Shown one piece after another: positions 43,663 to 60,404 of a DNA stretch of 64,000 nt. Positions within the stretch are counted from its first letter, which is position 1, and the number at the start of each line of letters is the position of its first letter. The notes beneath the pieces were generated by a model, which was given only the letters and a program-made list of their open reading frames with translations, ran no database searches and was not told the origin of the DNA. A program made the translations under genes and the position numbers. The DNA is taken from contig BMTG01000001.1 of NCBI GenBank assembly GCA_014649555.1, forward strand, positions 1,116,001 through 1,180,000. Direction: 5' to 3'. Source of the stretch: Streptomyces globisporus. Its GTDB lineage: Bacteria > Actinomycetota > Actinomycetes > Streptomycetales > Streptomycetaceae.

Positions 43663-43677
43663 CTGACGACCCGTCAG
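43663..43677. promoter_or_regulatory. operator A: shared catabolic dyad
   Basis: CTGACGACCCGTCAG, a perfect 6-3-6 palindrome 22 bases before the amidohydrolase ATG. Same motif as at 49920, 60286 and 60390. Confidence 0.65.
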
Positions 43678-43931
43678 CAATCGTGCGCGCATCCGCGACG
43701 GGCAGGGCACGGGGCATGGTTCCCGAATCGTTGTCGAGGGCTTGTGCAGAGCGTCACCCACTGCTGACGAGCCCGCCCGAGACAAGGCAGACTGTTGAGC
43801 GCGATACCAGCGGTACCGCGCCATCCGGATGCACACCGCACTTCGGCGCAGGGCGGACATTCGGGCGCGGGCACCACCGGCAGGATCCGCAGACGAGCGG
43901 GACCGGCAGGCGAGCAGGACAGGGGGCATCA

Positions 43932-46895
43932 ATGGACCGTGACAGCGGGCCACGCGTGCGCGTACCGGAGCAGCGTGCTCCGGAGAAACCGGGTACGGCG
44001 GACGCCCTCAGGTTCACCGTGCTCGGCCCCGTACGGGCCTGGCGGGGCTCGGAACTGCTCTCCTCCGGCTCGCCCCAGCAGCGCGCCCTGCTGACCGCGC
44101 TGCTGCTGCGTGAGGGCCGGACGGCCACCGCGGGCGAGCTGATCGACGCGTTCTGGGGCGAGGACCCGCCCTCGCAGGCACTGGCCACGATCCGGACGTA
44201 CGCCTCCCGGCTGCGCAAGATCCTGGGCCAGGACACGCTGGTGAGCGAGTCGGGCGGGTACGCGATCCGGATCGACCGGGGCGCACTGGATCTCACCCTG
44301 GCCCAGGACCTGGCGGCCGAGGCGGAGAAGGCGCGAGCGGCCGGGGACCGGTGCCAGGCGCGCACCCTGATCAACAAGGTGCTGGGCCTGTGGGACGGCG
44401 AGGCGCTGGCGTCCGTTCCCGGCCCGTACGCGGACAACCAGCGGACCCGGCTGGAGGAGTGGCGGCTCCAGCTCACCGAGACGCGGCTCGACCTGGACCT
44501 GGAGGTCGGCTGCCACGCGGAGGCGGTGTCCGAGCTGACCGCGCTCACCGCGGCGCACCCGCTGCGGGAGCGGCTGCGCGAGCTGCTGATGGTGGCGCTG
44601 TACCGCAGCGGCCGGCAGGCCGAGGCGCTCGCGGTGTACGCGGACACGCGGCGGCTCCTCGCGGAGGAGCTGGGGGTGGACCCGCGCCCCGAACTGGCCC
44701 AGCTCCAGCAGCGGATCCTGCGCGCCGACGAGGAGCTGGCCCGCCCGGCGGACGAACCTGCGCCCGCGCCCGCGCCGTTGAAGCCGGCGCAGCTCCCCGC
44801 CACCGTGCCCGACTTCACCGGCCGGTCCGCGTTCGTGGCGGAGCTGGGCAGCCGGCTGGCCACGGCGGAGGGATCGGTGATGGCCGTCTCGGCCGTGGCC
44901 GGGATCGGCGGCGTGGGCAAGACGACCCTGGCCGTGCACGTCGCCCACCAGGCCCGCCGGCACTTCCCGGACGGGCAGTTGTACGTCGACCTCCAGGGTG
45001 CCGGGGCGCGGGCGGCGGAGCCGGAGACGGTCCTCGGCTCGTTCCTGCGCGCTCTCGGTACGGCGGACTCGGCGATCCCGGACACGATGGACGAGCGGGC
45101 GGCGCTGTACCGCTCGACGCTGGACGGCCGCCGCATCCTGATCCTCCTGGACAACGCCCATGACGCGGCTCAGATCCGCCCGTTGCTGCCCGGTACGCCG
45201 GGGTGCGCGGCGCTGGTGACGAGCCGGGTGCGGATGGTGGACCTGGCCGGGGCGCATCTGGTGGATCTGGACGTGATGTCGCCGGAGGAGGCGCTCCAGC
45301 TCTTCACCCGGATCGTGGGCGCGGAGCGGGTGGGCGCGGAGCGGAAGGCGGCCCTGGACGTGGTGGCCGCGTGCGGCTTCCTGCCCCTGGCCATCCGCAT
45401 CGCCGCCTCCCGCCTGGCGGCGCGCCGCACCTGGACGGTGTCGGTGCTAGCCGCGAAGCTCGCGGACGAGCGGCGCCGCCTGGACGAGCTCCAGGCGGGG
45501 GACCTCGCGGTGAAGGCCACGTTCGAACTCGGCTACGGCCAACTGGAACCGGCCCAGGCCCGGGCCTTCCGCCTCCTGGGCCTCGCGGACGGCCCGGACA
45601 TCTCCCTGGCCGCGGCGGCCGCCCTGCTGAACCTGGACCCGCACGCGGCGGAGGACCTCCTGGAGGCCCTGGTCGACACGAGTCTGGTGGAGTCCGCGGC
45701 CCCGGGCCGCTACCGCTACCACGACCTGGTCCGCCTCTACGCGCGTGCGTGCGCGGAGCGGGACGAGCGGGCGGTGGAGCGGGAGTCGGCGTTGTCGCGG
45801 CTGCTGGACTTCTATCTGGCGACGGCTGCGGGGGTGTATGCGCTGGAGCGGCCGGGGGACCGGCTGGTGGACCACCTGGCGCGCGTCGACCAGCCCGGGC
45901 TGGTGTTCCAGCAGCGGGGCCCGGCGCTGGACTGGATTCACGCTGGGGCGGAGTGCGTCCTGGCCTGCGCCCACCAGTGCACCGACTCGGCTTCCTTGCG
46001 GCGGGCGGCCGACCTCCTGCTGGCGGCAAAGGATCTGCCCGAATCCGGGGCCAACTCCCGGCGGTACGAGCTGGCCGCTCAGGCCGTGCTCGCCGCCGCG
46101 GTCCGTACCGGCGATGTCCATACCGAGGGCAGGGCTCGCACCGCCCTCACGAACGTCTTTCACTTCGCGGGCCGGTTCGACGAAGCCGAGGAGGAGGCAG
46201 AGAAGGCCATGGCCCTCTCCGAGGCCAACGAGGATCCGATTCCAGGCGGGTACGCGGCCAACACCCGCGGCTTCATCGCGGTCTACCAAGGCCGCTACGC
46301 GGAGGCGGAGAAGTACCTGCAGGTGGCTATCGCAAGCTTCAGGAGCGACGGCAATTGGCCGAGCGAAGCGAGCGCCCTCTGCAACCTGTCGCGGGCACAG
46401 CTGGCCATGGGCCGGACGGGCGGCGCAGTGACCCTTGCCCGGCAAGGGGTCGACATATACGACCGCCAGGGGCTGAGTCTGCGTCTGGCGAACGGGCGCT
46501 ACGCCCTGGGCATCGCCCTCACCCAGGCGGGAGAGCTGGATGAGGCGCTCACCCAACTCTCCGAAGCCCTGGACATCTTCCATGAGAGCCGTCAGCCGCT
46601 CTGGGAAGGGATGACGCACTTCCGACTGGCTGAACTGCACCTTCTCGCCGGCCGTTCGGCTCAGGCTGCCGCGCATGCCGAGCAGGCCATCGCGCTCCGG
46701 GGCATCGGCGGGGAGTGGCGCCGCGCAACCGTGCTGACCGTCCTGGGCAAGGCCCTCAAGCTTCTGGGCCAAGTGGACCGGGGGCATGCGTGCTGGGTCG
46801 AAGCCCTGACGATCTTCGAGAACCACGGCTCGCAGGAAGCGGCGGAGGTTCGCAGCCTCCTGTCCCCTCAGCGCATGGACCAAGGGTGCCCCTGA
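43932..46895 (+). CDS. afsR: AfsR-type SARP global regulator (SARP-NB-ARC-TPR)
   Basis: 987 residues, close to the 993 of S. coelicolor AfsR. Domains in order: OmpR-type winged helix (about 28-100, RFTVLGPVRAWRGSELLSSG), bacterial transcription-activator helices (about 115-265), Pro/Ala linker, NB-ARC ATPase (about 290-560) with P-loop GIGGVGKTT (Lys330) and RILILLDNA, and a TPR array (about 740-987). AfsR is phosphorylated by Ser/Thr kinases such as AfsK and then activates afsS. The next gene is an AfsS-like peptide with a direct-repeat box in its promoter, and an AfsK-type kinase lies at 53995, supporting orthology rather than a random SARP. Confidence 0.88.
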   Translation: MDRDSGPRVRVPEQRAPEKPGTADALRFTVLGPVRAWRGSELLSSGSPQQRALLTALLLREGRTATAGELIDAFWGEDPPSQALATIRTYASRLRKILGQDTLVSESGGYAIRIDRGALDLTLAQDLAAEAEKARAAGDRCQARTLINKVLGLWDGEALASVPGPYADNQRTRLEEWRLQLTETRLDLDLEVGCHAEAVSELTALTAAHPLRERLRELLMVALYRSGRQAEALAVYADTRRLLAEELGVDPRPELAQLQQRILRADEELARPADEPAPAPAPLKPAQLPATVPDFTGRSAFVAELGSRLATAEGSVMAVSAVAGIGGVGKTTLAVHVAHQARRHFPDGQLYVDLQGAGARAAEPETVLGSFLRALGTADSAIPDTMDERAALYRSTLDGRRILILLDNAHDAAQIRPLLPGTPGCAALVTSRVRMVDLAGAHLVDLDVMSPEEALQLFTRIVGAERVGAERKAALDVVAACGFLPLAIRIAASRLAARRTWTVSVLAAKLADERRRLDELQAGDLAVKATFELGYGQLEPAQARAFRLLGLADGPDISLAAAAALLNLDPHAAEDLLEALVDTSLVESAAPGRYRYHDLVRLYARACAERDERAVERESALSRLLDFYLATAAGVYALERPGDRLVDHLARVDQPGLVFQQRGPALDWIHAGAECVLACAHQCTDSASLRRAADLLLAAKDLPESGANSRRYELAAQAVLAAAVRTGDVHTEGRARTALTNVFHFAGRFDEAEEEAEKAMALSEANEDPIPGGYAANTRGFIAVYQGRYAEAEKYLQVAIASFRSDGNWPSEASALCNLSRAQLAMGRTGGAVTLARQGVDIYDRQGLSLRLANGRYALGIALTQAGELDEALTQLSEALDIFHESRQPLWEGMTHFRLAELHLLAGRSAQAAAHAEQAIALRGIGGEWRRATVLTVLGKALKLLGQVDRGHACWVEALTIFENHGSQEAAEVRSLLSPQRMDQGCP

Positions 46896-46901
46896 CAGGG
46901 C

Positions 46902-46923
46902 GTTCATCGTTCGTTTATCCCCC
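46902..46923 (+). promoter_or_regulatory. AfsR/PhoP-type direct-repeat box
   Basis: Two abutting 11-base units, GTTCATCGTTC (46902-46912) and GTTTATCCCCC (46913-46923), end exactly 17 bp before a TAGGAA -10 (46941-46946), so the box takes the place of the -35. SARP activators bind this way, and PhoP boxes share the GTTCA unit; both proteins bind the afsS promoter in S. coelicolor. Confidence 0.65.
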
Positions 46924-46940
46924 CACTGCACTCTCATCAG

Positions 46941-46946
46941 TAGGAA
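46941..46946 (+). promoter_or_regulatory. -10 element of the AfsS-like gene
   Basis: TAGGAA, 17 bp after the direct-repeat box. A second -10 candidate TAGATT lies at 46993-46998. Confidence 0.5.
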
Positions 46947-47007
46947 TCCGTCGCGTCGGGGGGCAGACGGAATCTCCCGGCGGCCGCGGCGTTAGATTGG
47001 CGGCCCC

Positions 47008-47047
47008 AGCCCGTCCGGCGACCTCCGGGGGAGTCGCCGGACGGGCT
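47008..47047 (+). terminator. 15-bp hairpin in the AfsS-like leader
   Basis: AGCCCGTCCGGCGAC (47008-47022) and its complement (47033-47047) with a 10-base loop, followed by TT. It lies between the afsR stop and the next ATG, and downstream of the -10 above, so it either ends afsR read-through or attenuates the peptide gene. The same arm sequence recurs at 53939-53976. Confidence 0.65.
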
Positions 47048-47084
47048 TTCCGGCCTTGTCCGCTGATCCACGTTGGAGCCAACC

Positions 47085-47246
47085 ATGAGCGACATCAACA
47101 AGCCCACGATCAAGCCGAAGCCTCTGGACGACCACATGTCCGGCGGAGACAAGGGCGTCGTCAGGCCTCAGGACGACCACATGTCCGGTGCCGACAAGAA
47201 CATCGCGAAGCCCCAGGACGACCACATGTCTGGGGAGCAGCCCTAG
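47085..47246 (+). CDS. afsS: AfsS-like small repeat peptide
   Basis: 53 residues with GGAG ten bases upstream of the ATG. The body is three 15-residue units, P(L/Q)DDHMSG followed by a Lys-containing spacer; the DNA GACGACCACATGTC recurs at 47127, 47172 and 47217, exactly 45 bases apart. S. coelicolor AfsS (63 residues) likewise has three repeats, built on DNHMP. The length, triple repeat, xDHM core and position after an afsR-type gene make this the AfsS counterpart, although the conserved Asn and Pro are replaced by Asp and Ser. AfsS is a small activator of secondary metabolism acting downstream of AfsR; mechanism not known in detail. Confidence 0.75.
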   Translation: MSDINKPTIKPKPLDDHMSGGDKGVVRPQDDHMSGADKNIAKPQDDHMSGEQP

Positions 47247-47319
47247 CCCTGGGGTGACATGAAACTGCCGCGGCGACGCCGAGGGGGAGCCGCCGCGGTC
47301 GCGGTACGGGGGAATGTGT

Positions 47320-47355
47320 GAGGGGCCCGAGACGGGGGAAACGCTCGGGCCCCTC
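47320..47355 (+). terminator. terminator of the AfsS-like gene
   Basis: Perfect 12-bp arms GAGGGGCCCGAG (47320-47331) and complement (47344-47355) with a 12-base loop, 73 bases after the stop. Confidence 0.75.
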
Positions 47356-47381
47356 CCGCGTGTCCGGGCGACACCCGCCTT

Positions 47382-47400
47382 ATAGCATAGAAAATGCCAT
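47382..47400. promoter_or_regulatory. TA-operon operator dyad and leaderless promoter
   Basis: ATAGCAT-AGAAA-ATGCCAT, an imperfect palindrome ending ten bases before the antitoxin ATG. CATAGT (47398-47403) is placed so that +1 would be the A of the ATG. Antitoxin binding here would give the usual autoregulation. The A/T content is far above the surroundings. Confidence 0.5.
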
Positions 47401-47409
47401 AGTGGGCCC

Positions 47410-47688
47410 ATGGCTGAAGCCCCCGACTTCCCCCCCGGAGACGGCCCCAGCAGTGGCATCTCCGTCTCCCTCACCGCCGGCACCCTGCACGCGATTCGTG
47501 AACGGGTCGGCAAGCGCGGCGTCTCCGCCTACCTCGAAATGGCAGCACAACGACAGATTGAGCGGGACGGCCTGAATGAGCTCCTCGCCGACTTCGAGGC
47601 GACCAACGGGCCCCCCGACCCCGGCGCCGTGGCCGACAAGCGCGCCAAGCTGACGAGCAACCCGTCCGAAGCCGGAGCAGCCGGGTGA
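47410..47688 (+). CDS. ribbon-helix-helix-type antitoxin
   Basis: 92 residues. ISVSLTAGTLHAIRERVGKR followed by GVSAYLEMAAQRQIERDGLN resembles a CopG/RHH DNA-binding unit, and the acidic C-terminal half would bind the toxin. It overlaps the PIN-domain gene by GTGA. There is no ribosome site, in line with a leaderless start. Confidence 0.8.
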   Translation: MAEAPDFPPGDGPSSGISVSLTAGTLHAIRERVGKRGVSAYLEMAAQRQIERDGLNELLADFEATNGPPDPGAVADKRAKLTSNPSEAGAAG

Positions 47689-48083
47689 GCGGTGCGCTGG
47701 TCCTCGACAGCGAAGGGCTCGCGCAGGCGGTCCGGCGGAACCGAGAGGTTCAGGAATGGCTGGAGGCAGCCCGCGACGCCGATATCCCGGTCATCACCTC
47801 GGCAGTGGTCCTGGTCGAGGTCATTCACCCACGGATCGATACCGCCGCACTCTCCTGGACGCTGTCACGCCTACGCGTCGAACCGGTCAGTCAGACCCTC
47901 GCGCACACCGCCGCGTCACTGCTTCGAAACGCCGGGCTGCACGGCCACGAGTACGCAATCGACGCATTGCTCTGCGCAACCGCTCTGGCACACCCTGGCC
48001 GGGTGACCATCCTGACGTCCGACGTGGAGGACATCGGACTCCTCACGGCCGACCACCCTCGCGTGACAGCAGAAAAGATCTGA
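47685..48083 (+). CDS. PIN-domain ribonuclease toxin (VapC type)
   Basis: 132 residues. The acidic metal set is present: Asp8 (LVLDSEGL), Glu45 (VLVEVIHP), Asp93 (AIDALL) and Asp113 (LTSDVED). VapC-type toxins cut tRNA or rRNA when the antitoxin is lost. Paired with the antitoxin just upstream. It lies at the start of the segment that separates the afsS-like gene from the afsK-type gene. Confidence 0.88.
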   Translation: MSGALVLDSEGLAQAVRRNREVQEWLEAARDADIPVITSAVVLVEVIHPRIDTAALSWTLSRLRVEPVSQTLAHTAASLLRNAGLHGHEYAIDALLCATALAHPGRVTILTSDVEDIGLLTADHPRVTAEKI

Positions 48084-48110
48084 GGCCCCTGACCCTCCCG
48101 GCCGGGCCAC

Positions 48111-48296
48111 TCACTCCCGGCCCGGACCTCCGACAGGTGCCACCAGCTCCCCCGGCCGGTCCTGCTCGCGTCGGCGCTCGACGACCCGAGTGGCGTACGC
48201 GCTCAACCCTCCGGGGCCGACCTCGGCCAGGGTCTCCTCCGCCGGCTTCTCCGGCAGGGTGACGGTGTACTTCTTGGTCGGCATACGCACAACCAT
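48111..48296 (-). CDS. orphan small antitoxin-like protein
   Basis: About 61 residues (ATG 48296, or 48284). MPTKKYTVTLPEKPAEETLA then GGLSAYATRVVERRREQDRP resembles the DNA-binding core of the antitoxin at 47410 (shared G-x-SAY and RRxxQD/ERD pattern), but no toxin gene adjoins it. It sits 25 bases after the acyl-CoA ligase on the same strand and is convergent with the PIN gene. Either a solitary regulator or the remnant of a second TA pair. Confidence 0.55.
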   Translation of the reverse strand: MVVRMPTKKYTVTLPEKPAEETLAEVGPGGLSAYATRVVERRREQDRPGELVAPVGGPGRE

Positions 48297-48321
48297 GCCG
48301 CCGGAAACTCGCCGGCCCCAC

Positions 48322-49890
48322 TCATTTCCTCCCATCCGGTGATCCCCGCAGCTCCCCCTTCACCACCTTGCCGCTCGCATTGCGCGGGAGTTCCGGGACG
48401 AACTCCACCGTCCTCGGGACCTTGAAGTTCGCCATCTCGCGGCGGGACCAGGCGATCAGGTCGTCCGCGGTGAGCGTCGCGCCCCGGCGGCGGACCGCGT
48501 ACGCCTTGCCGACCTCGCCGAGGCGCGGGTCCGGGACGCCGATGACCGCGACGTCGGCCACGTCCGGGTGGAGGCCGAGGAGCTGTTCTATCTCGGCCGG
48601 GTACGCGTTGAAGCCGCCCACGATGAACATGTCCTTGATCCGGTCCGTGATCCTGAGGTTGCCCGCCGCGTCCAGGACGCCCACGTCGCCGGTGCGGAGC
48701 CAGCCGTCCTCGGTCATCGTGGCGGCCGTCGTGTCCGGGTCCTCGAAGTAGCCGCTCATCACGGTGAAGCCGCGGACCTGGACCTCGCCCGGTGCGCCCG
48801 GGTCCGCCAGGACGCGGATCTCGGTGCCGGGGATCGCGCGGCCCGAGGTCGTCGCCACGGTCTCCGGGGCGTCGCCCCGGCGGCACATCGTGACGATGCC
48901 GCTCGCCTCGGAGAGGCCGTACGCCGTGAGGACCGTCGCGATGTGCAGTTCGTTGCGCAGGCGTTCCACCAGTTGGAGGGGGACCACCGCCGCGCCTGTC
49001 ACCACCAGGCGCAGCGCCGACAGGTCGTGTGCCTCGCGTACCGGGTGGTCCAGCAGGGACTGGTGGAGGGTCGGCGGGCCGGGCAGGACCGAGATGCGTT
49101 CCGCCGCGATGTTCGCCAGCACCGTGTCCACGTTGAACACCGGCTGCGGCACCATCGTCGCCCCCCGCATCAGGCAGGCGATGATCCCCGCCTTGTAGCC
49201 GAAGGTGTGGAAGAAGGGATTGACGATGAGGTAGCGGTCGCCTTCGCGCAGGCCCGCCAGGTCGCTCCAGATCTCGTACGCGCGCAGCGTCTGCGCGTGC
49301 GTGATCACCGCCCCCTTGGGGGCGCCCGTCGTGCCCGAGGTGTAGATGATGTCGGAGGGGGACGACGGGGCGATCGCGGCCGCTCGGTCCCGTACGACTG
49401 AGGGCTCCACCCCCTCCCCCGCCGCCAGGAAGTCCGGCCAGCCCGTGTAGTCCTCGGGAGCCGTGTCCGCCAGCACGACCACCCGCTCCAGGTCCGGCAG
49501 TTTCACCTCCGCCCGGCGCAGCGACGCCACGTACGACGTGCCCAGGAACGTACCCGTGACGAACAGCAGCCTCGCCCGGCTGCGTCGCAGGATGTACGCC
49601 GCCTCCGTGCCCTTGAAGCGGGTGTTGAGAGGGACCAGCACCGCGCCCGCACTCACCGCCCCGAGCGCCGCGACGATCCATTCCGTCGTGTTCGGGGCCC
49701 AGATCGCCACCCGGTCCCCCGGCTCCACCCCGGCGGCCATGCACGCGGCCGCCGCACGCTCCACCCGGTCGCCGAGTTCGGCGTACGAGAGCCGGGTGCG
49801 GCCGTCGGCCACCGCCTCGGCCGGGCCGTACCGCTCGGCCGCCGCCCGTACCAGCCCCGGGATGCTGCCCCACTCCTCGTCGCCCCGCAT
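48322..49890 (-). CDS. FadD3-family acyl-CoA ligase
   Basis: 522 residues, ANL superfamily. P-loop-like IIYTSGTTGAPKGAVITHAQ, AYGLSEASG, the GWLRTGDVGVLD motif and the C-terminal Lys in PRNASGKVVKG are intact. The family makes CoA thioesters; FadD3 of mycobacteria acts on a steroid-ring-derived propionate, but the Streptomyces substrate is unknown. Divergent from the lipid-transfer/DUF35/hydratase genes with operator B in between. GTG 49893 is an alternative start. Confidence 0.9.
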   Translation of the reverse strand: MRGDEEWGSIPGLVRAAAERYGPAEAVADGRTRLSYAELGDRVERAAAACMAAGVEPGDRVAIWAPNTTEWIVAALGAVSAGAVLVPLNTRFKGTEAAYILRRSRARLLFVTGTFLGTSYVASLRRAEVKLPDLERVVVLADTAPEDYTGWPDFLAAGEGVEPSVVRDRAAAIAPSSPSDIIYTSGTTGAPKGAVITHAQTLRAYEIWSDLAGLREGDRYLIVNPFFHTFGYKAGIIACLMRGATMVPQPVFNVDTVLANIAAERISVLPGPPTLHQSLLDHPVREAHDLSALRLVVTGAAVVPLQLVERLRNELHIATVLTAYGLSEASGIVTMCRRGDAPETVATTSGRAIPGTEIRVLADPGAPGEVQVRGFTVMSGYFEDPDTTAATMTEDGWLRTGDVGVLDAAGNLRITDRIKDMFIVGGFNAYPAEIEQLLGLHPDVADVAVIGVPDPRLGEVGKAYAVRRRGATLTADDLIAWSRREMANFKVPRTVEFVPELPRNASGKVVKGELRGSPDGRK

Positions 49891-49919
49891 CACGCGCCCG
49901 CCTTCCGCCGCCGCACTAG

Positions 49920-49934
49920 CTGACTATCCGTCAG
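49920..49934. promoter_or_regulatory. operator B: shared catabolic dyad
   Basis: CTGACTATCCGTCAG, followed by ATTAG; sits between the divergent acyl-CoA ligase and lipid-transfer genes, able to control both. Right half CCGTCAGATTAG is the best-conserved half of the set. Confidence 0.65.
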
Positions 49935-49989
49935 ATTAGCGGTAGCCTCTGCCGCTGTCAGCAGGCGCGACAGTGCGGGAGGTCAGCGG

Positions 49990-51138
49990 ATGGCGACGCT
50001 CAAGGACGCGACGGCGATAGCCGGGATAGGACAGACGGCGTTCGCGAAACGCCTCCCGGAGTCCGAGAAGACCCTCGCCTGCCGGGCGATCCTCGCCGCC
50101 CTCGACGATGCGGGCATCGCTCCCTCGGAGGTCGACGGCTTCGCCTCGTACACCATGGAGGAGACCGACGAGGTCGAGGTCGCCAAGGCGATCGGGGCCG
50201 GGGACGTCACCTTCTTCAGCAAGGTCGGGTACGGAGGCGGGGGTTCCTGCGCCACCCTCGGCCATCTCGCCGCCGCCATCGCCACCGGGCAGGCGAGCGT
50301 CGGGGTCGCCTGGCGGTCGCGGAAGCGCGGGTCGGGCCCCCGGCCGTGGAAGAACACCGCCGTGCAGCTCCCGACCCCCGCCCAGTGGACCCGGCCCTAC
50401 GGGCTGCTGCGGCCCGCCGACGAGATCGGCATGCTCGCCCGGCGCTACATGCACGAGTACGGGGCCACCCGCGACCACCTCTTCAACGTCGCCCTCGCCT
50501 GCCGCAACCGGGCCAACCAGAACCCGGACGCGATCATGTACGACCGGCCGCTGACCCGCGAGATGTACATGACCTCCCGCTGGATCAGCGAACCTCTCTG
50601 CCTCTTCGACAACTGCCTGGAGACGGACGGGGCGTTGGCCTGCGTCATCGTCTCCGCCGAGCGCGCCCGCGACTGCCGGCAGAAGCCCGTCTATCTTCAC
50701 TCCGTCGCCCAGGGGCTGCCAGCCCAGCACCACGGGATGGTCAACTACTGGAACGACGACCCGCTCACCGGACCCGCCTGGGCAGCAGCTCGACAGCTCT
50801 GGAAGCAGGCCGACTTCGGGCCGGACGACGTGCATGTGGCCCAGATCTACGACGCGTTCACCCCGCTCGTCCCGCTCTCCCTGGAGGGTTACGGCTTCTG
50901 CGCGCGCGGCGAGGGCGGCGCGTTCACCGAGGGCGGGGCGCTGGAGAGCGGCGGACGGCTGCCGGTCAACACCGGCGGGGGCGGCCTGAGCGAGGCGTAC
51001 GTCCACGGCTTCAACCTCATCACCGAGGGCGTCAAGCAATTGCGCGGCACGTCCACCGCCCAGGTGCCGGACGCCGCCACCTGCCTGGTCACCGCCGGTG
51101 AGGGCGTGCCGACATCCGCTGTCCTGCTGAGGAGTTGA
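49990..51138 (+). CDS. lipid-transfer / thiolase-superfamily protein
   Basis: 382 residues. ATAIAGIGQTAFAKRLPESE, VGYGGGGSCATLGHLAAAIA and AQIYDAFTPLVPLSLEGYGF followed by GGGLSEAYVHGFNLI are typical of the SCP-x/Ltp group. Members paired with a DUF35 protein include steroid side-chain retro-aldolases (Ltp2 with ChsH2), so the DUF35 gene nine bases downstream is probably its partner. GGGAGGTCAGCG precedes the ATG. Substrate unknown. Confidence 0.88.
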   Translation: MATLKDATAIAGIGQTAFAKRLPESEKTLACRAILAALDDAGIAPSEVDGFASYTMEETDEVEVAKAIGAGDVTFFSKVGYGGGGSCATLGHLAAAIATGQASVGVAWRSRKRGSGPRPWKNTAVQLPTPAQWTRPYGLLRPADEIGMLARRYMHEYGATRDHLFNVALACRNRANQNPDAIMYDRPLTREMYMTSRWISEPLCLFDNCLETDGALACVIVSAERARDCRQKPVYLHSVAQGLPAQHHGMVNYWNDDPLTGPAWAAARQLWKQADFGPDDVHVAQIYDAFTPLVPLSLEGYGFCARGEGGAFTEGGALESGGRLPVNTGGGGLSEAYVHGFNLITEGVKQLRGTSTAQVPDAATCLVTAGEGVPTSAVLLRS

Positions 51139-51147
51139 GGCGATCCC

Positions 51148-51609
51148 ATGAGCATGTCCGATGCCGATTCCCTGCTGCTGCCCGTCGTCGACGAGGACGG
51201 CGCGCCCTTCTGGGAGTACACCGCCCGGGGCGAACTCCGCGTCCAGGCCTGCGCATCCCCCGCCTGCGGCGAACTCCGCTTCCCCCCACGCCCCTGCTGT
51301 CCGCACTGCGGGTCCTTCACGAGTGAATGGCGGCTGATGAGCGGGCGCGGGCGGCTCTGGTCGTACGTGATCCCGCATCCGCCGCTCCTTCCCGCGTACG
51401 CCGAACAGGCCCCGTACAACGCGGTGTTGGTCGAGCTGGCCGACGCCCCGCAGATCCGTCTTGCCGGGAACGTCGTCGCCTCCCCCGACGCGCCGCTGAA
51501 CTCGGTCGACCCGGCGCGGCTTCGGATCGGGGCTCCGGTGCGGGCCGCGTTCTGCCCGGCGGGGCCGAGCGGCTCGGTCACGCTCGTCCGCTGGCTCCTG
51601 GAGCGGTGA
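51148..51609 (+). CDS. DUF35 OB-fold zinc-ribbon protein
   Basis: 153 residues. The rubredoxin-like ribbon has CASPACGELRFPPRPCCPHC, and the OB-fold follows (GRGRLWSYVIPH, APYNAVLVEL). DUF35 proteins form heterocomplexes with thiolase-superfamily partners and may hand on acyl-CoA. It is translated between the lipid-transfer gene and the hydratase gene in one operon. Confidence 0.9.
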   Translation: MSMSDADSLLLPVVDEDGAPFWEYTARGELRVQACASPACGELRFPPRPCCPHCGSFTSEWRLMSGRGRLWSYVIPHPPLLPAYAEQAPYNAVLVELADAPQIRLAGNVVASPDAPLNSVDPARLRIGAPVRAAFCPAGPSGSVTLVRWLLER

Positions 51610-51612
51610 GCG

Positions 51613-52389
51613 GTGGCCCTGCGCATCGAGCGGGAGGCCGCGGCCGGCGTCGTGCTCGTCACCCTCGACCGGCCGGCGAAGCTCAACGCGATCGATCTGG
51701 AGACCGCCGCGGAACTCGCTTCACTGTGGCAGGAGTTGCGGTACGACGAGAGCATCCGGGCCGCCGTCCTCACCGGGGCCGGAACCCGGGCCTTCTGCAC
51801 GGGGATCGACCGGGGGATCGAGGTCCCGCAGCCCTCCTCCCCGTATGCCGTCGACGACCCGCTCCTGCGCATCGGGCCCAAGGCGAATGACCTGTGGAAG
51901 CCGGTGATCGCGGCGGTGGAGGGGATGGCCTGCGGCGGGGCCTTCTACCTGCTGGGAGAGGCGGAGTTCGTCGTCGCGTCCCGGGAGGCGACGTTCTTCG
52001 ACCCGCACACCACGTATGGGATGGTCTCGGCGTACGAGGCGATCGCGATGGCCCAGCGGATGCCGTACGGGGAGGTCGCCCGGATGTCCCTGATGGGCAC
52101 CGCGGAGCGGGTGAGCGCCGAGCGGGCGTACGCGGTCGGCCTGGTCAGCGAGGTGACGGAGCCGGGCGGCACGGTGGCGGCGGCGCTGCGGTCGGCGGCC
52201 GTGATCGCCGACTACCCGACGGACGCGGTGCAGGGAACGGTCCGGGCGGTGTGGTCCGCGAAGGAGGCGGCCAGGACCCAGGCCATGGCCCAGGCCCCGG
52301 CGCTGATCGCCCTGGGCAACCTGCCCCCGGACCGGCAGGCGGAGCTGTTCGGGGCGCGGGGCGGGGGCGGGGAGCCTCGGGTGCGGTGA
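51613..52389 (+). CDS. enoyl-CoA hydratase/isomerase family protein
   Basis: 258 residues, crotonase fold. VVLVTLDRPAKLNAIDLETA, the oxyanion-hole stretch AAVEGMACGGAFYLLGEAEF and a later FDPHTTYGMV are visible. One usual catalytic Glu position appears kept near GEAEFVV, but assignment by eye is uncertain. Third gene of the lipid-transfer operon; GTG start three bases after the previous stop. Confidence 0.9.
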   Translation: MALRIEREAAAGVVLVTLDRPAKLNAIDLETAAELASLWQELRYDESIRAAVLTGAGTRAFCTGIDRGIEVPQPSSPYAVDDPLLRIGPKANDLWKPVIAAVEGMACGGAFYLLGEAEFVVASREATFFDPHTTYGMVSAYEAIAMAQRMPYGEVARMSLMGTAERVSAERAYAVGLVSEVTEPGGTVAAALRSAAVIADYPTDAVQGTVRAVWSAKEAARTQAMAQAPALIALGNLPPDRQAELFGARGGGGEPRVR

Positions 52390-52405
52390 GAGGGTGACCG
52401 TGCGG

Positions 52406-52939: not shown

Positions 52940-53139
52940 CATGGATGCAGCCCCCCTTGGGTTTCGTTGCCGTAGGTCGAGCCGATGGCGTGCTGTGTGA
53001 CCCTCAGCATGCCGTGCCGGACTCCCTGTTCAGGTCATGACCCTGTCACGGTCCGGTCATGGTCTGCGTGGCGGGGGTGATCGTCCCGGCGTAGCGTCGG
53101 TCACGGGGGCCGTTCGCGTACGCCCCTGGAGGCCAGACG

Positions 53140-53826
53140 ATGATCCGCAATATCCTCGGCTCCGTCGTTGCCCTCGCCGGGGCCGCCTCCGCCGTGCTGA
53201 GCCCGTTCCGCGACTGGTACGGCGGGCGGGCCGGGCACGACTACCGGGTGCGGGACCTCTTCGAGGGGATCACCCCTGCGGAGTCGGGGGTACTGGTCTC
53301 GATCCTGCTGCCGTTCCTGGCTGCGGCACTGCTGGTGGTTCTGGGCGTGATGCTCAGGTCCCGGCTCGTGGTCGCCCTCGCGGGCCTGGTGGTGCTCGGC
53401 TTCACGATCCTGTGGATGGTCCGCCAGGGGCAGGCCGCGGGGTCACTGGTGGTGGGCGGGGACGGGGCGGGGTTGCAGGTGGGGGTGGTGAACGCGCTGG
53501 CGGGCGGGGTGCTGATGCTGATCGGAGCGTTGCTGATGAGCGGGGGGCGGAGCCGGCGGGAGCGGAGGGCGGTGCGGGAGCGGGAGCCCGTGGAGCCGTT
53601 CGCCGTGCCGGCGGCGGATCAGGTGGACACGTGGCCGCCGACGCAGGAGCCGGGGATGTCCGTGCAGACGTCGCCGTGGCCGGAGCCGGAGGTGGAGCCG
53701 TACACGGGGCCCGATCCGCGTGATGCCCGTACGCGGTCGTATCCGCAGGCCGCCCCGCATCCGGAGGACGACCCCCGGGACCCGGTGCATCCGCCGCACC
53801 GGCCCCCGCCGCCTCCGCAGGGGTGA
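53140..53826 (+). CDS. integral membrane protein with Pro-rich tail
   Basis: 228 residues. Four hydrophobic helices fall within residues 1-135 (first MIRNILGSVVALAGAASAVL; last VNALAGGVLMLIGALLM), with a conserved-looking FRDWYGGRAGHDYRVRDLF loop after the first. The C-terminal 90 residues are cytosolic, Pro/Glu/Asp-rich and end PPPPPQG. No known family recognised; widespread-looking Streptomyces membrane protein. It precedes the repeat block before the afsK-type gene. Confidence 0.8.
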   Translation: MIRNILGSVVALAGAASAVLSPFRDWYGGRAGHDYRVRDLFEGITPAESGVLVSILLPFLAAALLVVLGVMLRSRLVVALAGLVVLGFTILWMVRQGQAAGSLVVGGDGAGLQVGVVNALAGGVLMLIGALLMSGGRSRRERRAVREREPVEPFAVPAADQVDTWPPTQEPGMSVQTSPWPEPEVEPYTGPDPRDARTRSYPQAAPHPEDDPRDPVHPPHRPPPPPQG

Positions 53827-53840
53827 CGCCCGCCCCCGTC

Positions 53841-53976
53841 AAGGGTTCCGTCCTCAATCGCCGGGCGGGGCTGGAATCACGCAGCCTCGCCGCCCTCCCG
53901 AGGAAGGGTTCCGTCCTCAAACGCCGGACGGGCTGGGTGATCGCCGGACGGGCTCGATCCAGCCCGTCCGGCGATC
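53841..53976. repeat. intergenic repeat block with 16-bp hairpin
   Basis: Two direct copies of AAGGGTTCCGTCCTCAA plus a CGCCGG(A/G)CGGG segment (53841-53874, 53904-53936) are followed by a perfect hairpin, arms 53939-53954 and 53961-53976 (GATCGCCGGACGGGCT and complement). This GCCGGACGGGCT element is common between genes in Streptomyces; it also ends the afsK-type transcript. Confidence 0.7.
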
Positions 53977-53994
53977 GAGGACAAAGAAGGTGGC

Positions 53995-56409
<2,415 letters not shown>

Positions 56410-56565
56410 GTGCCTGCCACCTCCCCGTACGGACCTCGGTGACGAAGTCCGCGAATTACCGCCCGGTCGAATCCCGCCCTGCGCGCACCCCGATTCTTCC
56501 TGGCTCGGGCCCCGGTTGCGAACCCGGGGGCGGATCGGGGTGTCCCATGTCACTTCATCCCGTAT

Positions 56566-56615
56566 CCGTCCACACCGGGTTCACCCCGACTCCGTCCACA
56601 CCGGTTCGCCCCGAC
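56566..56615. repeat. tandem 26/24-bp repeat upstream of the afsK-type gene
   Basis: CCGTCCACACCGG(G)TTC(A/G)CCCCGAC occurs twice in direct tandem, just after the VOC stop. The contained GTCCACAC is near a DnaA box but not a match. Role unknown. Confidence 0.5.
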
Positions 56616-56618
56616 CGG

Positions 56619-57428
56619 TCAGGGAAGCAGTTCGCCGGGCTGCAGTACGGCGAAGGCGGCCCCCTGGTCGTCGTGGAGCACGGCCATCCTGCCGTAGGGG
56701 ATGTCGAAGGGCGGCTGGGCGACCCGGCCGCCGAGCTGGACGGCGAGTTCGGCGGCGGCGTCGCAGTCGGCGACGGCGAAGTAGATGAGGAAGTAGCTCG
56801 GCATCTCGGCCGGGAACGCGTCCGTGATGACGCTGCGGCCGCCGACGGCGGTGTCGGGGCCCGGTTCGACGCCCTCGGGGGACCACATGCGGAAGTCGAC
56901 CAGCGCTTCGGCATCGTCGGAGACGTCGTGGCCGGCCTCGTCCAGGTCGGTGCCGTGGAAGCCGAAGACCTTCTCGTAAAAGGGGTCCACCCGGTCCGGC
57001 TGCCGGGTGTAGACCTCGGTCCAGCAGAAGGAGCCGGGGTCGTTCTGCTTCTCGAAGCCCGCGCGCTCCTCCGGCTGCCAGAGCCCGAAGACCGCGCCCC
57101 CGGGGTCGGCCGCCTCCGCCACGATCCCGGCGGCCCCCGCCCGTACGGGGTCGGTGATGATCTGGCCGCCGTGCTCGCGGATCGAGGCGACGGTGGCCCG
57201 GATGTCGTCGGTGGAGAAGTAGACGCCCCAGGCCGTGGGCATCCGGCCGTCCTTCTTGGCGGCGAGGGCGGCGACCAGGCGGCCGTCGCTGAGCGCGTCC
57301 GCGAAGGGCATGCCGTCGCCTGCCCGGAAGGTCCAGCCGAAGAGCCCGCCGTAGAAGCGCTTGCCCGCTTCGAGGTCGGAGAGCTGCACGTCCGCCCAGC
57401 ACGGCGCGGAATGCGCGAATGCGGCCAT
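56619..57428 (-). CDS. two-domain VOC (glyoxalase-like) protein
   Basis: 269 residues made of two glyoxalase/bleomycin-resistance folds: domain 1 about 5-130 (SAPCWADVQLSDLEAGKRFY, GVYFSTDDIRATVASIREHG) and domain 2 about 140-269 (SFCWTEVYTRQPDRVDPFYE, IYFAVADCDAAAELAVQLGG). AAGGA lies before the ATG. Such duplicated VOC proteins bind or modify small molecules; substrate unknown. Same strand and directly upstream of the afsK-type kinase. Confidence 0.85.
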   Translation of the reverse strand: MAAFAHSAPCWADVQLSDLEAGKRFYGGLFGWTFRAGDGMPFADALSDGRLVAALAAKKDGRMPTAWGVYFSTDDIRATVASIREHGGQIITDPVRAGAAGIVAEAADPGGAVFGLWQPEERAGFEKQNDPGSFCWTEVYTRQPDRVDPFYEKVFGFHGTDLDEAGHDVSDDAEALVDFRMWSPEGVEPGPDTAVGGRSVITDAFPAEMPSYFLIYFAVADCDAAAELAVQLGGRVAQPPFDIPYGRMAVLHDDQGAAFAVLQPGELLP

Positions 57429-57800
57429 GGGACCGGGTCCTTCCGTAGCAGTGACGCCCACCAGGGACGTCGGCATCGTGACGCCCGTCACAGTCAACGT
57501 AACGTCGCCCCCGGCCCCGCGCGCCCCGACGCACGGCGAACGCCTGGCGGATGCACCTATAGAGAACATTTGCCCGGTTGGTGAAGGGGTCGCCCAGCAT
57601 GTGGACGAAAGTTGTCCACCGAAGTTATCCACAGGCTGTTGATAACATTTACCGTACGTAACATCCCCAGCTCCGCGGCCCTCGCGGGCGGCGGCCGAAA
57701 ACCGCCGCTCCCCTCCCCCGCGCACCCCGCCGATCCTGCGCCGTTCCCCATTTGCAGTCGGCCGAATCGCGCTCCCATCACCCCTCGGTAAGCTGACGGC
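57429..57800. other. divergent intergenic region with DnaA-box cluster
   Basis: 372 bases between the VOC (minus) and TetR (plus) genes. Around 57540-57660 it is A/T-rich for this genome and holds three DnaA boxes, then TTGATAACATTTACC and a TTAC/GTAA dyad (about 57650-57662) that could be the TetR operator. The stretch 57665-57770 is Pro-codon-like C-rich sequence without a gene. Confidence 0.6.
57600..57633. promoter_or_regulatory. cluster of three DnaA boxes
   Basis: TGTGGACGA (57600-57608, minus-oriented TCGTCCACA), TTGTCCACC (57612-57620) and TTATCCACA (57625-57633), spaced 12-13 bp. The Streptomyces consensus is TTGTCCACA with tolerated changes at the first three places. Confidence 0.55.
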
Positions 57801-58448
57801 ATGACAGGACAAGTACGCACCGTCGACGGCCGCGTGGCCGGTCGACGCGGTCAGGCGACGCGGCAGAAGCTGCTCGACTGCCTCAGCGAGATGCTCAGCT
57901 CCTCGCCGTACCGGGACGTCAAAGTCATCGACGTCGCCCGGAAGGCCGGGACTTCACCCGCGACTTTCTACCAGTACTTCCCCGACGTGGAGGGCGCCGT
58001 CCTCGAAATCGCCGAGGAAGTCGCCAAGGAGGGTGCCGGACTGACCGAACTGGTCGCCGGACGCTCCTGGGTCGGCAAGGCCGGCTGGACCACCTCGGAG
58101 CAACTCGTCGAGGGATTCCTCGACTTCTGGCGGCACAACGACGCGATCCTGCGCGTGATCGACCTCGGCGCGGCCGAGGGGGACAAACGGTTCTACAAGA
58201 TCCGGATGAAGATCCTGAACTCGGTCACCAACTCCCTCACGGATTCGGTGAAGGAGCTCCAGAGCAAGGGCAAGGTCGACAAGGACGTCAGCCCGGCGGC
58301 GATGGCGGGCTCCCTGGTGGCGATGCTGGCCGCGGTCGCCTCGCACCAGAAGGGCTTCACCACCTGGGGCGTGAAGCAGGCCGAACTGCGCCCGAACCTG
58401 GCGCTGTTGGTCCACCTCGGCATCACCGGCAAGAAGCCGACGAAGTAG
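57801..58448 (+). CDS. TetR-family transcriptional regulator
   Basis: 215 residues. The HTH is at about 17-65 (RRGQATRQKLLDCLSEMLSS, IDVARKAGTSPATFYQYFPD); the ligand-binding helices follow (GFLDFWRHNDAILRVIDLGA) and the protein ends in a Lys-rich tail. It is the only TetR protein in the window and is convergent with the acyl-CoA dehydrogenase operon, so it is a candidate for binding the four shared dyads, though none lies before its own gene. Confidence 0.92.
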   Translation: MTGQVRTVDGRVAGRRGQATRQKLLDCLSEMLSSSPYRDVKVIDVARKAGTSPATFYQYFPDVEGAVLEIAEEVAKEGAGLTELVAGRSWVGKAGWTTSEQLVEGFLDFWRHNDAILRVIDLGAAEGDKRFYKIRMKILNSVTNSLTDSVKELQSKGKVDKDVSPAAMAGSLVAMLAAVASHQKGFTTWGVKQAELRPNLALLVHLGITGKKPTK

Positions 58449-58474
58449 GCCCACCCCCGCCACGTCCTGTCTCA

Positions 58475-58522
58475 CCGACGGCGGACCACCCCCACGCACC
58501 CCTGCGGGTGGTCCGCCGTCGG
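58475..58522. terminator. 17-bp bidirectional terminator
   Basis: CCGACGGCGGACCACCC (58475-58491) and its exact complement (58506-58522) with a 14-base loop, between the convergent TetR and reductase genes. Confidence 0.8.
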
Positions 58523-58558
58523 CGTCCCCGGACGATGCCCGCGGTCGCCGCTCTCCGG

Positions 58559-59044
58559 CTACCGCCGCTCCAGCCGGAACAGCCGGATCTGCCGCTCCAC
58601 CCGTCGCTGGTACGCCGCGTACGGCGGCCAGAACGCGAGCGCGGCCTCCCACACCCGGGCCCGCTCCTCGCCCTCCAGCAGGGTCGCGCGGACGGGAATG
58701 TCCCGGCCGCGCCAGTTGACGACGGCCTCGCCCCCGCGGGCCAGCAGGTTCGCGGTCCAGGCCGGGTGACCCGGACGGCCGAAGTTGCTGCCGACCAGGA
58801 TCCAGGAGCCCTCCACCTCCCCCTCGGGCATACAGGCCAGCGGGGTGGTCCTCGGCCGGCCCGTGCGCGCCCCCGGCACCGTGAGGACGAGCCCCGGCAG
58901 CATCCGGGCGCTGAGCAGCACCCTCCCCCGGGTGAGCCGGTGCACGGCCCGGTCCAGCACGGGAACCACATACGGGGCGAACAGCGCGAAGGCCCGGGTC
59001 GAGGAGACCCGCTGGACCAGCCGCGCACCCCGGGCGCCGGTCAC
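58559..59044 (-). CDS. deazaflavin (F420)-dependent nitroreductase-family protein
   Basis: 161 residues of the DUF385/Ddn type: MLPGLVLTVPGARTGRPRTT, SWILVGSNFGRPGHPAWTAN and GRDIPVRATLLEGEERARVW. These small split-barrel proteins bind F420 and reduce quinones, nitro groups or other small acceptors. The GTG 59044 overlaps the acyl-CoA dehydrogenase stop, so the two are coupled and probably share operator C. Confidence 0.88.
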   Translation of the reverse strand: MTGARGARLVQRVSSTRAFALFAPYVVPVLDRAVHRLTRGRVLLSARMLPGLVLTVPGARTGRPRTTPLACMPEGEVEGSWILVGSNFGRPGHPAWTANLLARGGEAVVNWRGRDIPVRATLLEGEERARVWEAALAFWPPYAAYQRRVERQIRLFRLERR

Positions 59045-60246
59045 CGGACGCCCGCGCCGTGCAGGACCCCGGAAGCGGCGGTGGCGGGCCCGAAGAGTCC
59101 GGCCCGGTGCGCCGCGTGGTCGCGCAGCCGGTGGACCGGGCCGAAGAGCAGCTCGTCGCCCGCCGCCCGTTTGAGGTAGCGGTGCGCCTCGTGCTCCCAG
59201 GTGAAGCCGATGCCGCCGTGCAGCTGGACGGCCTCACCGGTGGTGACCCTGGCCGCCTCCAGGGCCTGGGCGAGCGCGAGCGGCCCGGCCTCCGGGTCCC
59301 GGGCTGCGTGGTACGCGGCGGAGCGGGCCGCCTCGACCCGTACGTACAGGTCGGCGAGGCGGTGCTTGACGGCCTGGAACGAGCCGACGGCCCTGCCGAA
59401 CTGTTCGCGCGTCTTCACGTACTCCACGGTGCGCTCCAGAGCGCTCGCCGCCGTCCCGACCGCCTCGGCGGCGAGGATCGCGGCGGCCGTGCGCCCGGCG
59501 TCGGCGAGGGCGGCGGCCGCGTCGGCGGTGTCGTCCGGGCCGAGCAGCTCGGCGGGGGTGTCGCGCAGTTCGACGCGGGCCAGGGGACGGGTCTCGTCGA
59601 GGGCGGTGAGCCGGGTGCGGACGAGCCGGGGCGCAGCGCCGGGGACCAGGAACAGCTGTGTACGGCTGCGCGGATAACCCCCGGCGTGGGCGGCGACCAG
59701 GAGCAGCCCGGCACTGTGCCCGTCCAGGACCCGGTCGGCCTCCCCGTAGAGCCGCCGCTCGCCCGCCTCCCCGTGAGCCTGGATGCCGCCGGCCCGGCCG
59801 CCGCCCGCCCAGGTCCCGTCGAGGTTGTCGCCGGTGAGGCCGAGGGCGGTGGCGAGCGAACCGCCGGGGAGGGCGAGCGCGGCGGTCAGGGTCCCGTCGG
59901 CGATCCGGGGCAGGAGGGCGGCCCGCTGGTCCGGGGTGCCGAGGGCGGCGATCAGGGGTGCGGCGAGGGCGGCGGTGGCGAGGAGCGGTGAGGGCAGCAG
60001 CGCCCGCCCGGTCTCCTCGCAGGCGAGGGCCAGCTCGGTGGCCGTGCAGCCGGCCCCGCCGTACTCCTCCCCGAGCGCGAGGCCCGGCAGCCCGAGATCC
60101 CCGGCGAGCCGACGCCACAGGGCCGGGTCGTAGCCCTCGGCGGTGCCGACAGCGGCGGGGATCGCATCGGGTCCGGTGTGCCGGGCGAGCAGGTCGCGCA
60201 GGGTGCGGCGGATCTCGTGCTGTTCCGCGGTGAGGGCGGTGTCCAT
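59041..60246 (-). CDS. acyl-CoA dehydrogenase
   Basis: 401 residues. The N-terminal helical part, the beta part and the C-terminal FAD helix bundle are recognisable: GLPGLALGEEYGGAGCTATE, TREQFGRAVGSFQAVKHRLA, QLHGGIGFTWEHEAHRYLKR. The usual catalytic Glu position is not clearly kept, so it may be a FadE-type subunit that works with a partner, as in steroid-type heterotetrameric dehydrogenases. ATG 60246 has GGAAGGAG eight bases upstream. A -10 TAATAT overlaps operator C. Confidence 0.88.
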   Translation of the reverse strand: MDTALTAEQHEIRRTLRDLLARHTGPDAIPAAVGTAEGYDPALWRRLAGDLGLPGLALGEEYGGAGCTATELALACEETGRALLPSPLLATAALAAPLIAALGTPDQRAALLPRIADGTLTAALALPGGSLATALGLTGDNLDGTWAGGGRAGGIQAHGEAGERRLYGEADRVLDGHSAGLLLVAAHAGGYPRSRTQLFLVPGAAPRLVRTRLTALDETRPLARVELRDTPAELLGPDDTADAAAALADAGRTAAAILAAEAVGTAASALERTVEYVKTREQFGRAVGSFQAVKHRLADLYVRVEAARSAAYHAARDPEAGPLALAQALEAARVTTGEAVQLHGGIGFTWEHEAHRYLKRAAGDELLFGPVHRLRDHAAHRAGLFGPATAASGVLHGAGVR

Positions 60247-60285
60247 CTGCGGGCTCCTTCCGCCCAGGGGCCGGCGACCCCTGAT

Positions 60286-60300
60286 CTGACGAGCCGTCAT
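60286..60300. promoter_or_regulatory. operator C: shared catabolic dyad
   Basis: CTGACGAGCCGTCAT with ATTAG following; 40 bases before the acyl-CoA dehydrogenase ATG and overlapping its -10 candidate (60299-60304, minus), a repressor position. Confidence 0.65.
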
Positions 60301-60389
60301 ATTAGGTGCGAGGAACGGTAATTCCCAGAGTCGCGCAGACGCGCGAGGCGAGGAAGGCTTCACGCACACCTGGTTGCGGCACCCCTTAT

Positions 60390-60404
60390 CTGATGTACCG
60401 TCAT
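60390..60404. promoter_or_regulatory. operator D: shared catabolic dyad
   Basis: CTGATGTACCGTCAT followed by ATTC, ending four bases before the thiolase ATG; binding would block transcription or the start site itself. Confidence 0.6.

Follow-up and report, generated by a model that had tools for sequence, protein, structure and literature searches.

A palindrome, CTGACG-N3-CGTCAG, lies at the promoters of catabolic genes in a 64,000-nucleotide stretch of the Streptomyces globisporus genome (GenBank assembly GCA_014649555.1, contig BMTG01000001.1; C1:1116001-1180000, 71.7% GC), referred to here as the window. Its probable reader is a TetR-family protein whose gene starts at position 57801 of the same window and which would repress the catabolism of cyclic isoprenoid acyl-coenzyme A (CoA) compounds and be released from its sites by a ligand. 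Genome comparisons indicate that these sites belong to a real and conserved TetR-type regulon of Streptomyces and beyond. TetR-type repressor regulons are a known kind of system, but this regulon is new.

Operator sites in the window and in the genome

The four palindromes from which the analysis starts are located at 43663, 49920, 60286 and 60390, where they carry 0, 1, 1 and 2 mismatches to CTGACG-N3-CGTCAG, respectively. Their right flanks read CAATC, ATTAG, ATTAG and ATTCA; as the original prediction had it, three of the four continue with ATTAG or ATTC. When up to two mismatches are allowed, the window taken alone shows no enrichment (10 matches compared with a shuffle mean of 7.8, and 25 of 100 shuffles reach 10). 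Because these window statistics are weak, the claim rests on the whole genome and on relatives.

A scan of the full 8.25 Mb genome, proposed with the original prediction as a check, finds the motif at a density well above that of its controls. Exact matches to CTGACGNNCCGTCAK number six on the forward and four on the reverse strand, and the same pattern read backwards has none on either. With one mismatch allowed, the counts are 71 and 58 compared with 9 and 7 for the backwards control. The symmetric pattern with A/T flanks, WNCTGACNNNNNGTCAGNW, yields 22 sites genome-wide compared with 0 for its reversed control. Seven of these fall within 45 kb (C1:1159661-1204217), a cluster that runs past the end of the window, with a binomial p of 2e-11 that is qualified by the fact that the pattern was shaped partly on cluster sites.

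All nine sites that match CTGACGNNCCGTCAK exactly are outside predicted genes, even though about 87% of the sequence is coding according to gene calls made with our own codon-usage script. Five are between divergent genes, three between co-directional genes and one between convergent genes, and eight of the nine are upstream of a gene. Among the next 13 listed loci with one mismatch, four are inside genes, and so the weaker matches include chance ones. Over 22 sites of this genome that were picked from larger lists, so that the flanks are descriptive only, the consensus reads AT-CTGACG...CGTCAG-AT. An A or T is found two bases outside the arm in 41 of the 44 half-sites, and a T one base outside in 26.

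The regulon is larger than the four promoters for which a single shared repressor was originally proposed. Six further sites are located past the window end, up to window-coordinate 88215, and others reside on other contigs. Seven of the 22 sites found with the symmetric pattern are in the cluster and nine adjoin oxidoreductase or acyl-CoA metabolism genes elsewhere, with roles assigned by Pfam matches or otherwise judged from sequence. These dispersed genes are luciferase-like and short-chain dehydrogenase/reductase (SDR) genes, a DUF35-thiolase pair, an aldehyde dehydrogenase, a reductase, a ligase/hydratase-DUF35-thiolase set and an operon on contig C5.

Conservation of the sites in relatives

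Footprints of the palindrome were sought in 36 stretches around the TetR gene, 32 from the genus and four from family f3 (one of 10 kb, the others of about 20 kb). Family and genome labels (f3, f14, f15, f16, f18, f21; G numbers) are sample codes. For each gene, the best match to the palindrome in the 200 bp ahead of it was counted if it had at most one mismatch. Orthologues with less than 45% identity, those outside a stretch and those with fewer than 150 upstream bases were left out. By this measure, a site precedes the lipid-transfer protein (LTP) gene in 29 of 29 orthologues, the FadD3-family ligase gene in 27 of 28, the thiolase gene in 25 of 25 and the small gene at 65117 in 12 of 12. 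The acyl-CoA dehydrogenase gene has one in 28 of 28 rows, representing 27 stretches (stretch L132 is entered twice, as is L095 for the monooxygenase discussed below). Since the LTP/ligase and dehydrogenase/thiolase pairs are divergent, their upstream windows overlap and these counts are not independent.

Other genes in the same stretches serve as controls, and none of their 140 upstream regions carries a site (DUF35 0/29, hydratase 0/30, F420 reductase 0/27, pyridoxine phosphate (PNP) oxidase-like 0/22, kinase 0/32). Similarly, 179 scrambled palindromes give a mean of 0-0.06 and a maximum of 6 per gene set. The sites at 49920, 60286 and 60390 are thus conserved at the same promoters in relatives, which the original prediction had named as a test. 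Many relatives have two different sites within one such divergent gap, and the central bases vary among relatives while the arms stay. A chance origin of the motif is ruled out by the genome control, the scrambled palindromes and these footprints taken together.

The site ahead of the C5 operon (C5:394594) is also kept in relatives. Among orthologues of this operon with 78-100% identity, the S. globisporus copy included, 16 of 16 have a one-mismatch site within 800 bp ahead, compared with only one of 14 paralogues with about 56% identity. The off-consensus arm CTGACT is shared by the LTP site at window position 49920, where it occurs in 24 of 25 members of the genus, and by the C5 operon site (L041:7597), where it occurs in 16 of 16. 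This conserved variant suggests that operator strength is tuned at these two promoters.

The PF19352 regulator

The original prediction pointed to the TetR protein at 57801 as the nearest candidate regulator. This choice is supported by its co-occurrence with the motif, by its genomic neighbourhood and by sites that precede its gene in other families. The protein matches the DNA-binding domain TetR_N, PF00440 (4.7e-6), and PF19352, also called TetR_C_38 (9.8e-73), and a PF19352 search of its own genome returns this protein as the one match. In a set of 61 genomes, all 51 that carry PF19352 hold the exact motif, compared with three of the ten that do not. The genus genomes in this set have the regulator in 37 of 37 cases and the exact motif in the same 37.

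A broader class sample comprises 296 genomes. With the genus (31 genomes) and family f15 (5) set apart, 17 strong carriers remain to be compared with 243 others; genomes whose PF19352 match was weaker than about 1e-20 were placed among the non-carriers. The median number of motif matches is 6 in the strong carriers and 0 in the others (p 2.5e-10). One non-carrier, G070, was entered with two exact matches instead of one, an error that works against the co-occurrence claim. The association also holds inside families. In f18, nine carriers differ from 20 non-carriers with p 4e-4, and in f16, five carriers have 7-14 matches while three non-carriers have 0, 0 and 1 (p 0.018).

Many TetR repressors, though not all, control their own gene, and here the sites at the TetR gene differ between families. 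With at most two mismatches, a palindrome precedes the gene in five of five f16, one of one f14 and four of four f18 genomes, at most 420 bases before a conserved codon. The same is true of Frankiales metagenome-assembled genomes and a Parafrankia record related to the f16 contig of G110. No convincing upstream site precedes the TetR genes of f15, f21 and two f3 genomes. In the f3 genome G041, the TetR gene is about 4.4 kb from a divergent FadD3/LTP gene pair with an exact site.

In the genus, the TetR start codon is overlapped by a half-site that could be autoregulatory. All 32 genus orthologues and three of the four from f3 have it with two mismatches, and the remaining one has it with three; its partly coding position could partly explain this conservation. 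The gene itself looks leaderless (window 57780-57801), with a TAAGCT box resembling a -10 element 6 bases before the ATG in 30 of 30 TetR loci compared.

The profile and structural model of this TetR protein are based on alignment A2, taken without row L118:9000-9100. The predicted structure is all-helical with a mean pLDDT (predicted local distance difference test) of 91, and its best fold matches are TetR proteins. A stretch in the helix-turn-helix (HTH) region, GTS.ATFYQYF, is nearly invariant across families that have a PF19352 TetR. Plasmid relatives of the protein with less than 60% identity are found by tblastn (28 of 39 records are Streptomyces, for example NZ_CP109456.1:31714-32289); they were not used as evidence.

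It is also conceivable that the regulon is real but is read by another regulator, either a different TetR or a second protein with the same recognition site. A TetR_C_33 protein and an AraC-type regulator are encoded inside the extended cluster, the start of the 57801 gene has just the half-site in the genus, and PF19352 is the one TetR family that was profiled across genomes. However, the presence of the single-copy PF19352 protein goes with that of the motif, both between families and inside f16 and f18, sites lie upstream of its gene in three other families, and its HTH stretch is nearly invariant, as is the motif. These observations make another reader unlikely. The 57801 protein is the likely reader on these sequence comparisons, which support its identity well, and we infer that it binds the sites directly.

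In the proposed mechanism, [A/T]T-CTGACG-N3-CGTCAG-A[A/T] would be the operator of the 57801 protein. A TetR dimer would bind at or just upstream of start codons and repress genes for acyl-CoA ligases, acyl-CoA dehydrogenases, Ltp/DUF35 thiolase-like pairs, hydratases, SDR and luciferase-like oxidoreductases and PF04909 oxygenase-like proteins. By analogy to KstR2 and its ligand, a CoA thioester formed early in the pathway might release the repressor. The pathway under its control would most likely break down a cyclic isoprenoid acid, steroid- or terpenoid-like, at its side chains or its rings.

The palindrome in family f15

Five genomes of family f15 contain 79-173 exact matches each. In one of these, G063, there are 135 symmetric exact CTGACGNNNCGTCAG palindromes and none in the control. 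Among 25 sites in 20 chosen stretches, with genes taken from re-trained gene calls, 11 are between convergent genes, four between genes on the plus strand, one between genes on the minus strand and nine inside genes. Several contain both TGA stops of the converging genes (for example L137:3045, L142:2964, L148:2756 and L152:2571). The f15 TetR also matches PF19352 more weakly (1e-10 to 8e-23). We considered f15 as a giant version of the regulon and rejected this on the placement of its sites. The f15 palindrome looks like a family-specific, terminator-like element, and all five genomes were therefore dropped from the statistics.

This case raises the question of whether the palindrome is a hairpin terminator or some other RNA element elsewhere as well. 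Six-base-pair arms around a three-base loop could fold, and the convergent placement and overlapped stop codons of G063 set a precedent. However, the S. globisporus genome has five of its nine exact sites between divergent genes and a single one between convergent genes, and the footprints in relatives sit upstream of starts. For the genus, an RNA element is largely refuted and must be considered very improbable.

Relationship to known regulons

The original prediction held that the motif matches no known KstR, KstR2 or FadR site. The part of this statement that concerns KstR stands. Passages of the KstR study give its operator as TnnAACnnGTTnnA (PMC1995591), a motif unrelated to the CTGACGN3CGTCAG of these sites, and KstR-like control of the window sites was rejected on this mismatch. 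The two systems have similar architectures, since the same passages describe KstR (Rv3574 of mycobacteria) as a TetR protein with a short promoter palindrome that is often between divergent genes, is also present at its own promoter, and serves a few dozen lipid-catabolic targets (PMC1995591).

The KstR2 (Rv3557c) system offers a second comparison. Its regulon governs the catabolism of 3aα-H-4α(3'-propanoate)-7aβ-methylhexahydro-1,5-indanedione (HIP) and comprises ipdABC, ipdF, echA20 and fadD3, with HIP-CoA as ligand. The KstR2 operator, CAAGnnCTTG, is absent from the window, from stretches L024 and L025, and from the ipdAB region of the S. globisporus genome (L126). Because it is absent even from L126, it may not be the motif in use in this genus. 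As with KstR2, the targets here include a FadD3-family ligase, and the f16 TetR gene adjoins homologues of echA20, ipdA, ipdB and ipdC. In contrast to KstR2-type control, the ipdAB region of S. globisporus has a separate TetR and no CTGACG site.

EthR of Mycobacterium tuberculosis is the solved structure closest in fold to the TetR model, with a template modelling (TM) score of about 0.78 and 17-18% identity. The modelled fold appears EthR-like, and a flavin-monooxygenase gene (65773) also adjoins a site here. However, the sequences are too distant for orthology.

Catabolic function and substrate

The substrate class would be a cyclic isoprenoid acyl-CoA, steroid- or terpenoid-like but probably not a sterol. 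One line of evidence is the C5 operon, which encodes an acyl-CoA dehydrogenase (ACAD), a MaoC-DUF35 protein of the ChsH2 type, a second dehydrogenase, a MaoC-like protein and an Ltp2 relative. For two of these, the second dehydrogenase and the MaoC-like protein, the assignment comes from reading the sequence only. Its Ltp protein matches Ltp2 (6ok1_A) with 5e-168 and its DUF35 part matches ChsH2 (6ok1_B) with 1.6e-41. The gene order corresponds to that of the igr operon for steroid side-chain degradation: ACAD, ChsH2 (MaoC plus DUF35), ACAD, MaoC, Ltp2. The operon at C5:394.8 kb thus gathers the gene set of the igr (ChsE-ChsH-Ltp2) side-chain operon, but it stands under the CTGACG operator.

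A second line comes from f16 (Frankiales), where the PF19352 TetR gene is located beside echA20-, ipdA-, ipdB- and ipdC-like genes with CTGACG sites (IpdA: 6co6, 5.8e-99). The roles of these genes are described in passages of PMC5380842.

The third line is the nearest solved relatives of the PF04909 protein at 43641, DitZ and PtmU3. The two PF04909 proteins in the regulon are 56% identical to each other and share SVDDH, HIG and DYPH stretches, while AEGQIGW is found only in the first. PtmU3, one of the nearest solved relatives of the first, is described as an amidohydrolase-related dinuclear oxygenase (PMC10811679). For this reason the PF04909 proteins here may, by analogy, be dinuclear-metal oxygenases rather than hydrolases.

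Another possibility, of some weight though not favoured here, accepts the regulon and its TetR but takes the substrate to be something other than a cyclic isoprenoid, such as an aromatic compound, a polyketide or a branched fatty acid. Ligase, dehydrogenase, thiolase, luciferase-like and SDR families are common to many pathways, and a genome survey found no steroid pathway in 55 of the 57 Streptomyces genomes it covered (PMC4810484). On the other side are the igr-type operon with its Ltp2 relative and ChsH2-type protein, the ipdAB homologues beside TetR in Frankiales, and the closeness of the PF04909 protein to DitZ and PtmU3 among solved structures. The survey figure and the lack of a site at the S. 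globisporus ipdAB genes together make an ordinary sterol unlikely. The acyl or steroid-like substrate of the original prediction is therefore plausible in its broader sense and doubtful if a sterol is meant.

Observations that weigh against the proposed regulon

A number of observations weigh against the 57801 protein as reader, or against the cyclic isoprenoid pathway. The exact motif is missing in two strong carriers, G069 and G077 (in-frame stop), and in the genus member G304, so that the genus count in the class sample is 30 of 31. Conversely, one match or more (maximum 6) is present in 89 of the 243 others, and the association of TetR and motif is confounded by kinship. The promoter of the TetR gene in the genus bears only the half-site over the ATG, and the five f15 genomes with their abundant matches had to be set aside. 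No catabolic target is evident at six of the 22 sites (C1:1077468, C10:68547, C13:165112, C15:37209, C19:30447 and C23:57573). A site is retained in just five of 17 rows ahead of the monooxygenase gene at 65773 and in two of 16 ahead of the DUF35 gene at 64686. Finally, the ipdAB region of S. globisporus (L126 = G000:C4:188000-207900) has no CTGACG site with up to one mismatch, and control of ipdAB by the regulon in this genome was rejected. This ipdAB-type (HIP catabolism) set has its own TetR (TetR_C_24), which is perhaps KstR2-like.

Genes and sites of the cluster

The features of the cluster are collected in Table 1. The product of gene 65117 has no Pfam match and appears DoxX-like by eye. 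The weaker palindrome at 70676 has the arms CTGACA...TGTCAG. Beside the thiolase gene, two small adjoining genes on the minus strand (window 61594-62269) resemble, judging by their sequences, genes for a PIN-domain toxin and its Phd-type antitoxin.

Table 1. Sites and genes of the proposed regulon. Positions are window coordinates; those above 64,000 are extended window coordinates.
Feature	Position	Strand	Remarks
PF04909 protein ('amidohydrolase')	42421..43641	-	Nearest solved relatives DitZ (8uyr, 1.6e-57) and PtmU3 (6omp, 6.6e-37)
Operator CTGACGACCCGTCAG	43663..43677	.	Exact match; 22 bp from predicted start of PF04909 gene (43641, -)
FadD3-family acyl-CoA ligase	48322..49890	-	NF005801, 835.5 bits (cut-off 657)
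Operator CTGACTATCCGTCAG	49920..49934	.	Between ligase and lipid-transfer thiolase; 30 bp to ligase start (49890, -), 56 bp to LTP start (49990, +)
Lipid-transfer protein/thiolase-like protein (LTP)	49990..51138	+	Relative of Ltp2 (6ok1_A, 3e-101)
DUF35/ChsH2-type oligonucleotide/oligosaccharide-binding (OB) protein	51148..51609	+	
Enoyl-CoA hydratase family protein	51613..52389	+	
Half-site CTGACGGCATGACAG	57793..57807	.	Covers ATG of TetR gene with its left arm intact; may be autoregulatory
TetR-family regulator (TetR_C_38, PF19352)	57801..58448	+	Proposed repressor; only PF19352 protein found in genome
F420H2-dependent quinone reductase-like protein	58559..59044	-	Downstream of acyl-CoA dehydrogenase
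Acyl-CoA dehydrogenase	59041..60246	-	Tcur3481 (6wy8) is the best solved relative; the match to the IpdE2 model falls short of its cut-off
Operator CTGACGAGCCGTCAT	60286..60300	.	40 bp from acyl-CoA dehydrogenase start (60246, -)
Operator CTGATGTACCGTCAT	60390..60404	.	5 bp ahead of thiolase start (60409, +)
Thiolase-like protein	60409..61581	+	
Site	65591		Small gene 65117 and DUF35/flavin monooxygenase
Site and weaker palindrome	70652, 70676		L024:10652 and L024:10676, 24 bp apart; nucleoside diphosphate (NDP)-forming acyl-CoA synthetase-like gene, hydratase
Site	73910		Flavin reductase; HsaB model matched below cut-off
Site	82687		SDR/cyclase-family protein
Sites	88111, 88201		Second PF04909 protein, then acyl-CoA dehydrogenases/acyl-CoA ligase

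Implications

A description of this regulator or motif was not found among the matches listed in a search of titles and abstract openings of open-licence papers. Streptomyces is intensively studied, yet a genus-wide regulator and its operator were not met in the literature found. A defined repressor, operator and target list provide a handle on a catabolic programme, whose ligand and substrate could be screened with a simple reporter.

More speculatively, and with greater doubt than attaches to the operator itself, the regulon may run a dedicated pathway throughout Streptomyces and in other actinobacterial families. This pathway would degrade a cyclic isoprenoid acid, perhaps of plant or soil origin or from the bacteria's own terpenoids or hopanoids, with the help of PF04909 dinuclear oxygenases and a side-chain removal of the igr type, in hosts that mostly do without steroid ring degradation. 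In Frankiales, the same repressor may have taken over the ipdAB (KstR2-type) operon. Such a regulon would explain why igr-like and FadD3-like genes are retained in bacteria that mostly do not have cholesterol pathways.

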